DNA from: Gemmata massiliana
GTDB taxonomy: Bacteria; Planctomycetota; Planctomycetia; Gemmatales; Gemmataceae
Length of the DNA stretch: 64,000 nt
Direction: 5' to 3'
Assembly (NCBI GenBank): GCA_000531095.1
Contig: HG799474.1
Location: forward strand, 1-64,000
Shown here: positions 22,677 to 28,868 of the stretch, piece after piece
How positions within the stretch are numbered: the first letter of the stretch is position 1
How the letters are laid out: every line of letters starts with the position of its first letter
Notes under the pieces: model-generated
Database searches by the model: none
What the model was told of the DNA's origin: nothing
What the model saw: the letters and a program-made list of their open reading frames with translations, nothing else
Translations under genes and position numbers: made by a program

Positions 22677-23573
22677 TCACGGAACGCGGTCGGTGTGGGT
22701 CTTGAGCGGGCCGGCCACGTCGTCAGGCACGAGCGGGAAGAACTTGTACCCGGTGCGCTGTTCGACCGTGCTGACAGACACGATGTACTTCTTCCAGTCG
22801 GTCCCCACCGTCTGATCGTTCGGCATCCACACGGCAAAGACCGGCGTATCGGCGCTCGGGGCCGCGGTCTTGTTCGGTAGCACCATCACCACTTTCCAGA
22901 CGCTCTCGGGCACCACGATCGGGTGCGATTTGCCGATCGTGAGGTGCCTCACCTCGTCGTTACCAAATCCGCCCCGGCCATGCGGCCCGCACGCGATGTA
23001 CAACTCGCTGTTCTTCTTCGCGAGTGAGCGGCAGTGTTCTTCCAGCAGGCGCCAGCCTTTTTGATTGTTGTTCGGCGATTGGGGGACGATGTTCGTCATG
23101 TAGAACAGGATGTTGTTATCTTCTTTTGAATTCGAGCGGTCCTTGGACGCGCACATGTGTCCGCGGTCGAACCCGGACGCGGCGTAGTCCGAGGATTTGA
23201 CGCGGTAGAAGTCTTTCGGCAGGTCCGGGTCCGGCTCGAAGCTCGTGTCGCGCTCGGCCGTGCCGATGTCGCTCGCGGTGAGGTTCCAGCACACCCAGTT
23301 CGGGTTCTTCGTCGCGTCGTTGTACGAGAGGACGTATTGCGGTCGATCGATCAGGTACGCTTCGCGGTTCGTCGGATCGTGCTTGGCTTCGGCCGGTAGT
23401 CCGAACCGCACGTTGCGGTTTTCGAGCGTCTGTTGATCGCCCTGCGGACCGGGCGGGTGCCCCTCCTGGCGCGAGCGCACCAGCGCAACGACACCGGCGA
23501 TAACGAGAATCACGACGCCGGCTATGACGCGCTGCGTCGGCGTCAGTTCGTCCAGGAAACTCTTCGAGGCCAT
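22677..23573 (-). CDS. DNA/RNA non-specific endonuclease, membrane-anchored
   Basis: A 298-residue nuclease of the NucA/Serratia (beta-beta-alpha metal) family. An N-terminal helix (about 13-32, RVIAGVVILVIAGVVALV) anchors it; the catalytic domain starts near residue 50. The active-site motif is GFDRGHMCASKDRS with the catalytic His, followed by the metal-ligand Asn in TNIVPQSPNNNQKGW. It is the last gene of the NHL-nuclease-inhibitor-nuclease operon, 20 bases after the inhibitor. The absence of a cleavage site suggests it stays in the membrane facing outward, unlike its secreted paralogue at 23986. It should cut DNA and RNA without sequence preference. Confidence 0.9.
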   Translation of the reverse strand: MASKSFLDELTPTQRVIAGVVILVIAGVVALVRSRQEGHPPGPQGDQQTLENRNVRFGLPAEAKHDPTNREAYLIDRPQYVLSYNDATKNPNWVCWNLTASDIGTAERDTSFEPDPDLPKDFYRVKSSDYAASGFDRGHMCASKDRSNSKEDNNILFYMTNIVPQSPNNNQKGWRLLEEHCRSLAKKNSELYIACGPHGRGGFGNDEVRHLTIGKSHPIVVPESVWKVVMVLPNKTAAPSADTPVFAVWMPNDQTVGTDWKKYIVSVSTVEQRTGYKFFPLVPDDVAGPLKTHTDRVP

Positions 23574-23593
23574 TCCTTAGCTCCGAGAATCGG

Positions 23594-23968
23594 TCACGTT
23601 TCAACGACTTGGGTCTTCACGCCGGCGTACTGCCCGTCGGTAGTGCGGCCGACGATGTAAACGTCCATGTTCACTTCGCCCACCTTGAACACGGTCACGC
23701 CGCTGAGGTGGTGCGCGAGCGTCGCGAACAGGTGGAGGAACTCCCCGCGGCTCTCGCTGGGGATCGTCCGCGTGAGGTCCGGGACCGTGAGCTGCTGGAC
23801 GGGCGCGTCCTTTTCGACCTTCGCGTTCGCGCGCACCGCGGCCTCGTCCGGCGGGCCGTCGCCCCCGGGCCACGCGAACGCCTCCAACGGCGCGTCCGAC
23901 TCGCTGGGGAACAGGAGCCCCTTCGCCGCCGCTTTGAGTTCCTTCAGAACCGGGGTCGTCTTCGCCAT
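23594..23968 (-). CDS. NuiA-like nuclease inhibitor
   Basis: A 124-residue cytoplasmic-looking protein from the ATG at 23968. The start TPVLKELKAAAKGLLFPSES and DAPLEAFAWPG, and the end VNMDVYIVGRTTDGQYAGVK, match the nuclease A inhibitor (NuiA) family known from Anabaena, where NuiA binds the NucA active site with a very tight complex. Here the gene sits between two NucA-type nuclease genes, 17 and 20 bases from each, which strongly supports that role. An alternative is an unrelated leaf-binding protein of the same fold. The inhibitor has no signal, so it would protect the cytoplasm from unexported enzyme. Confidence 0.85.
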   Translation of the reverse strand: MAKTTPVLKELKAAAKGLLFPSESDAPLEAFAWPGGDGPPDEAAVRANAKVEKDAPVQQLTVPDLTRTIPSESRGEFLHLFATLAHHLSGVTVFKVGEVNMDVYIVGRTTDGQYAGVKTQVVET

Positions 23969-23985
23969 GTGTGTCGTCCCGTGCG

Positions 23986-24828
23986 CTACCTTTTGTGAAC
24001 GGTGACCTTCACCGCGTCGGGCTTTTCCTTCAGCACTTCCGAGACCTCTTTGGGCACCAGCGGGAAGAATTTCAGCCCGGTCTTCTTCTCGATCTCGGCC
24101 ACGGACACGCGGTAGTGCGGCCAGTCTTCGGTAACCGTGTCGTCGTTGGGCATCCACACCGCGATGACGCGCGTGTTCTTGGTCGGGTTGGTGCCCTTAT
24201 CGAGTACGAGCGCCACCTTCCAGACGTGTGCGGGAACAGTAATAAACGGCGCGTTCTTGCCGATGGTGAGCTTCTTGGTGCCGTCGTTGGCGACGCCCCC
24301 GATGCCGTGCGGACCGGCCGCGATGTACAGTTCCTTGCCGTCTTCCGCTAGCGTCCGGCAGTAGCTCTCGAACCGCTCCCAGCCCTTTTGATTGCACGCG
24401 GCCGATTGCGGCACCATGTTCGTCATGAGGAACACCGCGTCGTTGTTCTCCTCCGTGTCCGAGCGGTCCTTCGAGGGGACGAGGTGCCCGCGGTCGAACC
24501 CGCTCCCGGTGTAGTTCGCGCTGGTGACGTGGGTGAAGCCCTTCGGCAGCCCCTTGTCCGGCTCGAACGCGCCGCGGGCCGTGCGCCCGATGTCCTTCGC
24601 GGTTAGGTTCCAGCACACCCAGTTCGCGGTCTTGTGTTTGTCGTTGTACGACATGACGTACTGCGGCCGGTCGATCAGGTACGCTTCCTTGTGGGCCGGG
24701 TCCGGTTTCGCTTCGCCGGGCATCCCGTACCGGACGTTGCGGTTCGCGGGCGGCTTCGGCGGGTCCGCGCTGGCGGGCAGCGCGGACAGAGCAACCGCGA
24801 TCGCAAGAATCAGAAGGAGACGCTTCAT
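23986..24828 (-). CDS. DNA/RNA non-specific endonuclease, secreted
   Basis: A 280-residue NucA-family nuclease starting at the ATG at 24828. A clear signal peptide (KRLLLILAIAVALSALPASA) ends near residue 22. Catalytic motif GFDRGHLVPSKDRS, then the Asn-containing TNMVPQSAACNQKGW, and DRPQYVMSYND and NWVCWNLTAKDIG in the N-terminal half as in the second copy. It differs from the paralogue at 22677 mainly in the N-terminal anchor. It begins five bases after the stop of the NHL gene, implying translational coupling, and is followed by the inhibitor gene. Probable role: degrading extracellular or periplasmic nucleic acid, for nutrition. Confidence 0.92.
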   Translation of the reverse strand: MKRLLLILAIAVALSALPASADPPKPPANRNVRYGMPGEAKPDPAHKEAYLIDRPQYVMSYNDKHKTANWVCWNLTAKDIGRTARGAFEPDKGLPKGFTHVTSANYTGSGFDRGHLVPSKDRSDTEENNDAVFLMTNMVPQSAACNQKGWERFESYCRTLAEDGKELYIAAGPHGIGGVANDGTKKLTIGKNAPFITVPAHVWKVALVLDKGTNPTKNTRVIAVWMPNDDTVTEDWPHYRVSVAEIEKKTGLKFFPLVPKEVSEVLKEKPDAVKVTVHKR

Positions 24829-24833
24829 GATGG

Positions 24834-25910
24834 TTACTCGCGAACGATTTTGAGTACGCGACCGTTGCTCGCATCGGAAATGTAGATGTCGCCGGTCTGT
24901 GGGTGAACGATGACGCCGTGCGGCTGGTTGAACTCCGACTTCAGCGGATCGCCCCCGCCGAGCCCCGTGCCCTTCTTCCCGGTACCGGCCACGAGCGAGA
25001 GTGTACCGTCTTTGGGGCTGTAACGCACGATCCGGTGATTCTCCGTGTCCGCAATCAGCACCGAGCCGTCGCGATCGATGCACAAGTGCTTCGGGCCGTT
25101 CATTGCGGCTTCGAGCGCTTTCCCCGTTCCCTGGCCCGCCTTCCCGGTCCCGGCGACAGTGCGAATCGCTCCTTTCGCATTCACGACACGCAGCGCGTGT
25201 CCGCTGCGTTCCAGAATCCAGAGGTTGCCGTCCTTGTCGACCGCGTGCGCCCGGGGATCGACGAGCGGCTGCTTCAGTGCGTCTTCGCCGTCCTTCGGAA
25301 CGCCCTTTTCGCCGTTACCCGCGACTGTCGTCACCACCTCGGATTTCATGTCGATCTTGCGAATCCGGCGGTTATCGAGATCGGTGAGGTAGAGGTACTT
25401 CTTGTCTGGATCGAACGCGGCGCAGAACACGCCGCCGAATTTCGCTTTGGCTGCCGGCCCGCCGTCACCGGAAAAGCCTTTCTCGCCGGTGCCCGCGAAC
25501 GCGCCGACCTTGTCGTTGGCAACGTCGTACCGGCGCACGCGGTTGTTCCAGGTATCGGCGAGGTACACGTGCCCGTCCGCGCCGACCGCGAGCGAGTGCA
25601 TGCCGTTGAAGGTCGCTTTTGCCCCGGGACCGCCGTCGCCGTCGCTCCCCTTTTCCCCCCCAATACCGGCGAGGGTGCCGAGCCGATCGTCCCGGAGTAG
25701 TCGAAGGCGCTCGCCCTTCGCCATTTCCACAATGTAGATCGTGCCCGTCGGCGCGAAATCGACTCCGAACGGCTGAATCAGCTTCGCCTTCTGTGCTTCC
25801 GTGCCGTCGCCGCCTTCACCGCCGCCCGCGACGAGACTGATTTTGTCCGCTCGCGCAGTCAATGCGCTTAAAAGCAATAAGCATGATGCGAGTGACAGAA
25901 CACGGCGCAT
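24834..25910 (-). CDS. Secreted NHL-repeat beta-propeller protein
   Basis: A 358-residue protein with a signal peptide (residues 1-21, LASCLLLLSALTARA). It then carries about six NHL repeats in the form G-x-V-Y-L-A-D-T-x-N-x-R-V-R (HVYLADTWNNRVRRYD, YLYLTDLDNRRIRKID, SVLIADTENHRIVRYS, DIYISDASNGRVLKIV), each followed by a GDGGP-type loop. The fold should be a six-bladed propeller. It is the first gene of the operon with the nucleases and inhibitor and ends five bases before the secreted nuclease. Whether it cooperates with the nucleases or only shares the promoter is unknown; NHL propellers commonly bind proteins, sugars or RNA. Confidence 0.85.
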   Translation of the reverse strand: MRRVLSLASCLLLLSALTARADKISLVAGGGEGGDGTEAQKAKLIQPFGVDFAPTGTIYIVEMAKGERLRLLRDDRLGTLAGIGGEKGSDGDGGPGAKATFNGMHSLAVGADGHVYLADTWNNRVRRYDVANDKVGAFAGTGEKGFSGDGGPAAKAKFGGVFCAAFDPDKKYLYLTDLDNRRIRKIDMKSEVVTTVAGNGEKGVPKDGEDALKQPLVDPRAHAVDKDGNLWILERSGHALRVVNAKGAIRTVAGTGKAGQGTGKALEAAMNGPKHLCIDRDGSVLIADTENHRIVRYSPKDGTLSLVAGTGKKGTGLGGGDPLKSEFNQPHGVIVHPQTGDIYISDASNGRVLKIVRE

Positions 25911-27322: not shown

Positions 27323-27431
27323 GGCGCCGCGCCCGCGTTTTTTGACGCTCGCCGTTAATCGGGCGATCGAGTAGTCTGTTGTGGCCGGCGCCGCGGGGCG
27401 CCGCACATCACCACATTCAAGAGGTGTGAAA

Positions 27432-27800
27432 ATGCGGACGCTACTCGGACTCGGGATCGTGCTGGCCGTGGTTTGTGGCGCGCACGCGGCGGACGACAAG
27501 AAGCTCGACGCGAAGAAGCTCGTCGGCAAGTGGGAGCCGGTGAACCCCAAGAAGGGCGAGGCGATGGTGATGGAGTTCACCAAGGACGGCAAGCTGACCG
27601 TCACCGGTGACATGGGCGGTAAGGAGCTGAAGATCGAAGGCACCTACACGCTCGAAGGCGACAAGCTCTCCTTCGTGCTGAAGTTCATGGACAACGAGAT
27701 CAAGGAAACGGTCACCCTCACGAAACTGACCGACGACGAGATGGAAGGCAAGGACAAGGGCGGGAAGGTCGAGTCCTTCAAGAAGGTGAAGCCGAAGTAA
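27432..27800 (+). CDS. TIGR03066 Gemmata paralogous secreted protein
   Basis: A 122-residue protein from the ATG at 27432 with GAGGTG upstream. Signal peptide residues 1-19 (RTLLGLGIVLAVVCGAHA), then the TIGR03066 body: DDKKLDAKKLVGKWEPVNPK, EFTKDGKLTVTGDM, GTYTLEGDKLSFVLKF. The alternating strands resemble lipocalin-like (DUF-type) barrels. The family is named from Gemmata and has no known function. It is the first of three tandem paralogues, each followed by its own terminator. Expected location: periplasm or outside. Confidence 0.85.
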   Translation: MRTLLGLGIVLAVVCGAHAADDKKLDAKKLVGKWEPVNPKKGEAMVMEFTKDGKLTVTGDMGGKELKIEGTYTLEGDKLSFVLKFMDNEIKETVTLTKLTDDEMEGKDKGGKVESFKKVKPK

Positions 27801-27819
27801 CCCGCTGTTCTTGGTGACT

Positions 27820-27857
27820 CCGGAGCCGGTCGCGATAACCCTCGCGGCCGGCTCCGG
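27820..27857 (+). terminator. Hairpin after the first TIGR03066 gene
   Basis: A 15-base stem with one mismatch (27820-27834 with 27843-27857, CCGGAGCCGG core) and an eight-base loop, 19 bases after the stop. Confidence 0.7.
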
Positions 27858-27969
27858 TATTTGGTGCCCCGCATCGGTTTGCACTCGCCGCGTTCGGGCG
27901 GGGTGTGTAGTTTCTCCCCAACGACCGCGTGGCGGTCGCCGAAATCGTGTCACTCACCGGAGCAAGCAC

Positions 27970-28341
27970 ATGCGTGTCCTCGCCGCGTTGGTTGCGGTTC
28001 TCGCCCTCGCCGGGTTCGCCGGCGCCGCGGACGAAAAGATCGATGCCAAGAAGCTGATCGGGAAGTGGGAACCGTCGAAGCCCGAAAAAGACGGCCCGAA
28101 GCTGGTTCTGGAGATCGGCGAGAAGGGCAAGTTCACGCTCCACGTGACCATCGGCGGGAAGACCGAGAATATCGACGGCACCTACAAGCTGGAAGGCAAC
28201 AAGCTGGACATCGAAATGACCTTCGGCGGTAAGACCGAGAAGGAAACGATCACGATCACCAAGCTCACCGATACGGAACTGGTGGCCAAGGACTCGAAGG
28301 GCAAAGAAGACACGATGACCCGGGTGAAGGATAAGAAGTAA
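27970..28341 (+). CDS. TIGR03066 Gemmata paralogous secreted protein
   Basis: A 123-residue paralogue of the preceding gene, from the ATG at 27970. Signal peptide RVLAALVAVLALAGFAGA. Shared body DEKIDAKKLIGKWEPSKPEK, LEIGEKGKFTLHVTIGGK, GTYKLEGNKLDIEMTFGGK, with a Lys-rich end (TRVKDKK). The similarity to the gene at 27432 is obvious along the whole length, so this is a tandem duplication. The gap before it (27801-27969) holds a terminator and presumably a promoter, so the copies are separately expressed. Confidence 0.85.
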   Translation: MRVLAALVAVLALAGFAGAADEKIDAKKLIGKWEPSKPEKDGPKLVLEIGEKGKFTLHVTIGGKTENIDGTYKLEGNKLDIEMTFGGKTEKETITITKLTDTELVAKDSKGKEDTMTRVKDKK

Positions 28342-28361
28342 CCGGTTCGTGAACGCGCGCC

Positions 28362-28395
28362 GACGGCCGCGGGGGATTCATTCCCCGCGGCCGTC
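28362..28395 (+). terminator. Hairpin after the second TIGR03066 gene
   Basis: A 13-base perfect stem (28362-28374 with 28383-28395, GACGGCCGCGGGG) and an eight-base loop, 20 bases after the stop. Confidence 0.75.
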
Positions 28396-28454
28396 TCGCT
28401 TTACGCACGTTCGCGCTGGTGGTATCCTGGGACCACCCGTGAGGAGGTTCGTCG

Positions 28455-28868
28455 ATGCGCGGTACCGTCGTCGGTCTGGTCGCGTTGTGGGTCGGTGGCT
28501 CCGTGTGGGCCGCGCCCGTTCCGAAGGATCGCACGGAAGCCGAGAAGGTGGTCGGCACCTGGAAGATGGTGCTCGACTCGCGCGGGAACACGGACACCGA
28601 CGTGGAGGTCGAGTTCACGCAGGGCGGGAAGATGACCATTCGCCAGCGGATCGATAAGGACACGTTGTCCGTGTACGAGGGCAGCTACCGTGTCGTCGGG
28701 AACGAACTACCCTACGAAGTGAAGCAAGACGCACTCGTCAAGAAAGAGACGCTCACCATCAAGAAGATCACCGCCGACGAACTGGTCTTCATCGACCCGG
28801 ACGGGTTGAAGGAAGAGTTCGTCCGCGTGAAGAAGAAAGTCGAACCGAAGAAGGACGACAAGAAGTAG
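28455..28868 (+). CDS. TIGR03066-like secreted protein
   Basis: A 137-residue third member of the tandem set, more diverged. Signal peptide RGTVVGLVALWVGGSVWA. It retains the pattern KVVGTWKMVLDSRG, VEFTQGGKMTIRQ, EGSYRVVGNELPYEV and TLTIKKITADELVF, and ends with a Lys-rich tail (KKVEPKKDDKK). The start ATG is preceded by GAGGAGG. It converges on ltaE 20 bases later. Function unknown; the family may bind small ligands, which is only inferred from the lipocalin-like strand pattern. Confidence 0.75.
   Translation: MRGTVVGLVALWVGGSVWAAPVPKDRTEAEKVVGTWKMVLDSRGNTDTDVEVEFTQGGKMTIRQRIDKDTLSVYEGSYRVVGNELPYEVKQDALVKKETLTIKKITADELVFIDPDGLKEEFVRVKKKVEPKKDDKK

Follow-up and report, generated by a model that had tools for sequence, protein, structure and literature searches.

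When one nuclease inhibitor is encoded between two related nucleases, does it have to serve both of them? The question is raised by a run of four genes in a 64,000-nucleotide stretch of the genome of Gemmata massiliana (contig HG799474.1, positions 1 to 64,000; hereafter, the window). All four lie on the minus strand: a gene for an NHL-repeat β-propeller is followed, with gaps of 5, 17 and 20 bases, by nuclease A, a NuiA-type inhibitor and nuclease B, in the order and with the spacing given by the first-pass annotation of this DNA. The locus holds the known NucA-NuiA system in a new form, with a duplicated nuclease and a shortened inhibitor. On the reading that we favor and consider probable, the inhibitor has been kept for the exported nuclease A and can probably bind nuclease B as well, and B does not need it.

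Two nucleases and a NuiA-type inhibitor

Nuclease A (NucA_sec; 23986–24828, minus strand, 280 residues) and nuclease B (NucB_memb; 22677–23573, minus strand, 298 residues) match the Pfam family Endonuclease_NS (PF01223) over nearly the full domain, with 179.4 and 178.8 bits, respectively, against a cut-off of 23. The inhibitor between them (23594–23968, minus strand, 124 residues, with no visible export signal) matches NuiA (PF07924) with 97.3 bits against a cut-off of 22.1. In a search of solved structures, the top two matches of both nucleases were 2o3b_A and 1zm8_A (8e-55 for A, 5e-50 for B), and the two matches of the inhibitor were 2o3b_B and 1j57_A (3e-16); the Pfam matches and these chains of the Anabaena NucA-NuiA complex bear out the earlier identification of the genes. 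Both nucleases carry the DRGH motif together with the active-site N, E and R. Under the Anabaena residue numbering, which is consistent with the structure alignments and which we take, along with the catalytic roles, to apply to A and B, the equivalents of D121, H124, N155, E163 and R167 are invariant across the genus, in each of the nine A and 14 B orthologues; the R of DRGH (R122) is replaced by K in B of two genomes (G025, L046:1362-2354; G012, L070:6032-8116). A and B are predicted to be sugar-non-specific nucleases that cut DNA and RNA.

Signal peptides and anchors, for these and all other proteins discussed here, were called from hydropathy and by eye. The N-terminus of nuclease A (MKRLLLILAIAVALSALPASA) is signal-peptide-like. 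In nuclease B, about 15 residues precede a 19-residue hydrophobic stretch (mean hydropathy 2.62; approximately residues 16–34), which is followed by a linker and would form a single N-terminal anchor. The two termini fit the proposal of the first-pass annotation that one nuclease is released and one anchored.

The acidic contact residue of NuiA has not been lost in the window inhibitor: its E23 aligns with NuiA E24, and T124 of its C-terminal ET aligns with NuiA T135. We take Glu24 to be the metal-bridging residue of NuiA and the C-terminal Thr135 to act in the active site. A contact between D121 and E24 is described in PMC5374557, in which the protein names appear to have been exchanged. Conservation was assessed in an inhibitor alignment of 92 rows, made up of the fetched family loci and 61 named loci, some of which repeat the same contigs. 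The E24 equivalent is kept in 90 of the 91 rows that have a residue there; for the final T the count is 89 of 90. The only exception at both positions is the NuiA homologue of G087 (L055:5806-6939), which has lost the C-terminal ET and whose genome has no PF01223 match.

These features suggest the following mechanism. Nuclease A would be exported through a cleavable signal peptide, and the cytoplasmic inhibitor, encoded directly after A, would cap whatever folded A remains inside the cell. As in Anabaena, Glu23 of the inhibitor would bridge to the metal of the active site, and the C-terminal Thr would enter that site. Nuclease B would be a paralogue in which a type II signal anchor replaces the signal peptide, so that its catalytic domain is proposed to face out of the cytoplasm. 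The most likely role of both enzymes would be to break down DNA and RNA outside the cytoplasm for nutrient recovery, A at a distance and B at the membrane. According to PMC4890671, NucA without its signal peptide kills Synechocystis cells once induced, which supports NuiA as a cytoplasmic guard.

Presence and order of the genes in the genus

The genus was surveyed in 19 genomes, many of which are fragmented assemblies, so that an absence can be a gap. Nine genomes encode A, the inhibitor and B (G009, G010, G011, G013, G016, G020, G025, G026 and the window genome, G000). The three genes are contiguous in this order in five of these (G000, G009, G010, G016 and G025) and probably also in G013, where two contigs end inside the unit; A of G013 was assigned by its phmmer score (469.7 vs 293.3). 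The arrangement is thus conserved beyond the window genome, in four other members of the genus. B lies away from the inhibitor in G011, in G020 (at about 3 kb and on the opposite strand) and in G026. G024 has the inhibitor and B without A; a G+C-rich inverted repeat was seen by eye between these two genes (L045:6510-6640). Four genomes with a stated completeness of 92–100% (G012, G019, G021 and G023) encode B with neither A nor the inhibitor. In G012, G021 and G023 the gap between the NHL gene and B is too short for a 124-residue gene, and in G019 the NHL gene is on another contig. A search for a substitute inhibitor of the NuiA_2 family (PF23151) gave no match in these four genomes, and its five matches in the genus are the NuiA genes themselves. 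G015, G018 and G022 hold nuclease-NuiA pairs of another clade, and G014 and G017 gave no PF01223 or NuiA match. Overall, NuiA accompanies A in 9/9 genomes, and none was found in four of the 14 genomes with B; set against the genomes that have B but no A, the comparison is 9/9 versus 1/5 (Fisher p 0.005, uncorrected for phylogeny).

The first-pass annotation had the inhibitor guarding the cytoplasm against both enzymes. Taken in full, this would mean that the inhibitor protects equally against A and B and that the three genes constitute one obligate unit, as might be expected from their contiguity in five and probably six genomes, the retention of the inhibitor with B in G024 and the active site of B, conserved except for R122K in two orthologues. 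The separation of B from the inhibitor in three genomes and the occurrence of B with no NuiA or NuiA_2 match in four others argue against such a unit, which we regard as possible but rather doubtful. The part of the claim that stands is binding: the inhibitor can probably bind B, which is plausible because B shares its active site and its clade with A, and because G024 keeps the inhibitor with B and without A. The distribution supports the reading that we favor, in which the inhibitor is tied to A and B can do without it.

Origin of the two nucleases

In a tree of 70 nuclease rows, from which A of G013 was left out, the 10 rows of A, two of which (G090 and G091) come from another genus, make up a clade that is sister to the one made up by the 14 rows of B, with supports of 99/98 for A, 93/93 for B and 99/89 for the two jointly. 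They belong to a clade of 27 rows with a support of 90/99, which is modest, as is that of B. Rows flagged as long are L050, L073, L098, L064, L066 and L054, and a very long branch unites L071 and L072. The tree thus makes A and B sister paralogues. The outgroups closest to them, L050 and L052/L053, are encoded next to NuiA, and their N-termini by eye are lipoprotein- or signal-peptide-like, which suggests that the ancestor was probably a NuiA-paired exported enzyme and that B gained its anchor after the duplication.

The ratios of nonsynonymous to synonymous substitutions (dN/dS, NG86) of A, the inhibitor and B, computed between the window genome and two relatives, range from 0.08 to 0.17; for G000 and G009 they are 0.079, 0.080 and 0.129, respectively. 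All three genes are under purifying selection, and these values, together with the recurrence of the A-inhibitor-B order, indicate that the arrangement is not due to chance.

The window genome encodes a third PF01223 protein (L073:4702-5874; G000:C14:33157-33819), with a signal-peptide-like N-terminus and QRGH replacing DRGH; the sole NuiA match of this genome is the window inhibitor. In G011 (L071:4664-6769) and G009 (L072:4459-6348), a trypsin-like peptidase domain (PF13365) and a C-terminal Endonuclease_NS domain are encoded in a single long open frame, and frames of comparable size with a similar DRGH segment are found in G089 (L142) and G044 (L143).

A shortened loop in the inhibitor

The window inhibitor has a gap where Anabaena NuiA has W76, and a Ser at the edge of this gap is aligned with Q74; both are residues through which, we presume, NuiA contacts the nuclease. 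The W76 loop is not a requirement of PF07924. In the window inhibitor and those closest to it this loop segment is 18 residues long, whereas 58 of the 69 rows with another length have 28 residues. The 18-residue form was found at 15 distinct loci, all 15 of them beside nucleases of the 27-row clade that holds A and B. A nuclease insertion matching the loop deletion was sought with a pattern that proved too loose to discriminate, and the majority of rows from outside the clade did not match it. We tentatively raise the idea, for which we see a limited chance, that the components diverged jointly in Gemmata relatives, the inhibitor losing its W76 loop, the nuclease being duplicated to give one released and one anchored enzyme, and the latter repeatedly becoming independent of the inhibitor. 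If so, these genomes would offer a natural series in which the separation of an enzyme from its own inhibitor can be followed.

Several observations weigh against a module in which the inhibitor is kept for A and dispensable for B. The absence of the W76 loop implies an interface that differs from that in Anabaena, and loops of 19–21 residues (L066/L101, L086 and L054/L082, with the partial row L061 also among these forms) occur beside nucleases outside the A/B clade. The charge bias flanking the presumed anchor of B is weak. G024 indicates that the inhibitor can persist with B alone, and mirror-tree correlations over nine genomes are slightly higher for the inhibitor with B (r 0.78) than with A (r 0.68); distance correlation, tried as a means of discriminating between the two partners, failed to separate them. 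Anchor-type nucleases of other clades have NuiA adjacent (L040, L042, L044, L049, L054 and L056), so that anchoring does not generally remove the need for an inhibitor. Conversely, exported-looking nucleases are found without NuiA beside them, in G066 (L137, with NuiA elsewhere) and in G033 (L138, with NuiA on another contig), and in G089 five NuiA matches stand against two nuclease matches. Because B orthologues are available both from genomes with the inhibitor and from genomes in which none was found, they provide material on whether a nuclease inserted in the membrane requires a guard in the cytoplasm.

Comparison with known systems

Like the NucA-NuiA system of Anabaena (PDB 2o3b, 1zm8 and 1j57), the locus combines a ββα-metal nuclease that appears by eye to be exported with an apparently cytoplasmic inhibitor; the sequences match over nearly the whole proteins, and E24 and the C-terminal Thr are retained. 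Unlike that system, it has two nucleases per inhibitor, and the inhibitor is without the W76 loop. One NuiA beside two PF01223-type nucleases is also found in Pontibacter ruber (L116), but there the nucleases are lipoprotein-like by eye, arranged in tandem, convergent to the inhibitor and members of another clade. Nuc and Nuc2 of Staphylococcus aureus belong to a different nuclease family. They likewise comprise one secreted nuclease and one type II surface nuclease held by a signal anchor, but the abstract of PMC3994088 mentions no inhibitor for them. In Bacillus subtilis, one inhibitor, Nin, acts on two related nucleases, NucA and NucB, although PMC5758888 gives no significant sequence homology, in a comparison involving the licheniformis NucB (BlNucB).

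A search of the literature on planctomycete nucleases and their inhibitors showed no such planctomycete pair among the matches listed, as judged from titles and the beginnings of abstracts. Gemmata is known for the uptake of macromolecules, and the first-pass annotation suggested that the two nucleases could serve the digestion and uptake of external DNA or RNA. A literature search on nucleases and DNA uptake in Gemmata gave a single paper, on plastid transformation.

Distribution beyond the genus

NuiA was found in 26 of 95 genomes of the family and in five of the 392 genomes of a phylum sample, one of which is the window's own; the other four (of 391) all belong to other families. The NucA-NuiA pair is hereby extended into a planctomycete family that is enriched in NuiA. 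PF01223 was found in 32 of the 95 family genomes, 25 of which have both; it is present in 25/26 genomes with NuiA versus 7/69 without. G087 is the only family genome with NuiA and no PF01223, and PF01223 occurs without NuiA in G012, G019, G021, G023, G035 (below the curated cut-off), G044 and G045. A nuclease is adjacent to at least one NuiA in 24 of the 26 NuiA genomes (the exceptions being G033 and G087) and, for 22 of these 24, is located upstream in the same orientation; of the other two, G013 has a contig end at this place, and G024 has only a downstream nuclease. This pattern identifies nuclease followed by NuiA as the common unit, and a second nuclease of the A/B clade as special to this genus. 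Second nucleases without NuiA in the fetched stretch were found in G066 (L137), G022 (L139), G018 (L140) and G092 (L141), the last two at contig ends.

Of the 61 named NuiA loci, for which flanks of up to 5 kb were fetched (some contigs are shorter), 45 have a nuclease-type match in the fetched stretch. Two whole nucleases occur only at the loci of three genus members (L074, L076 and L077) and of Pontibacter ruber; at L110 a single nuclease is split over two frames. For the 16 loci without such a match, PF01223 is found elsewhere in 13 genomes and is not found in three (L100, L111 and L124). The NuiA proteins of these three keep the Glu and an ET or ETT C-terminus.

These three genomes, with NuiA and no PF01223 match, resemble carriers of immunity without toxin, and this resemblance, together with the order of enzyme then inhibitor, could be taken to mean that nuclease-NuiA genes are toxin-immunity pairs directed against neighbouring cells. 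We consider this very unlikely. A Pfam scan of A and B (E ≤ 0.001) detected no family besides PF01223, with no trafficking or repeat domain, so that the C-terminal architecture of polymorphic toxins is not seen; B, moreover, appears to be anchored. The immunity partners of Tox-NucA given in the part of PMC3482391 consulted are Imm36, SUKH and NTF2, and the word NuiA is absent from its text.

The NHL gene and other neighbours

The first gene of the co-directional run (24834–25910, minus strand) encodes a 358-residue β-propeller with a signal-peptide-like N-terminus and TEN_NHL and NHL Pfam matches, which the first-pass annotation saw as a possible presenter of substrate to the nucleases. The 5-base gap between this gene and A, the persistence of the NHL gene, A and the inhibitor together away from B in G011, and the adjacency of NHL to A or B in most loci of the genus would be expected if the four proteins formed one functional complex. 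The expected co-occurrence, however, holds in part only. An NHL orthologue (550 bits or more) is present in 17 of the 19 genus genomes, missing in G017 (82% complete) and G025 (68% complete), and four of those that have it (G014, G015, G018 and G022) have no A or B that we could find; about 1.6 kb separate NHL from A in G026; and no NHL match (E<1e-8) was obtained in the stretches fetched around nuclease-NuiA loci from other genera, which include short contigs. On this distribution, the NHL protein is unlikely to be a part of the module, a complex with the nucleases is very unlikely, and we judge the gene to be a syntenic neighbour that is not obligatorily linked to the nucleases.

Elsewhere in the window, following a Na/H exchanger, three small proteins with mutual sequence matches are encoded one after another at 27381–28868 on the plus strand. 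They recur in loci of the genus, and the first of them has a weak lipocalin-like match.

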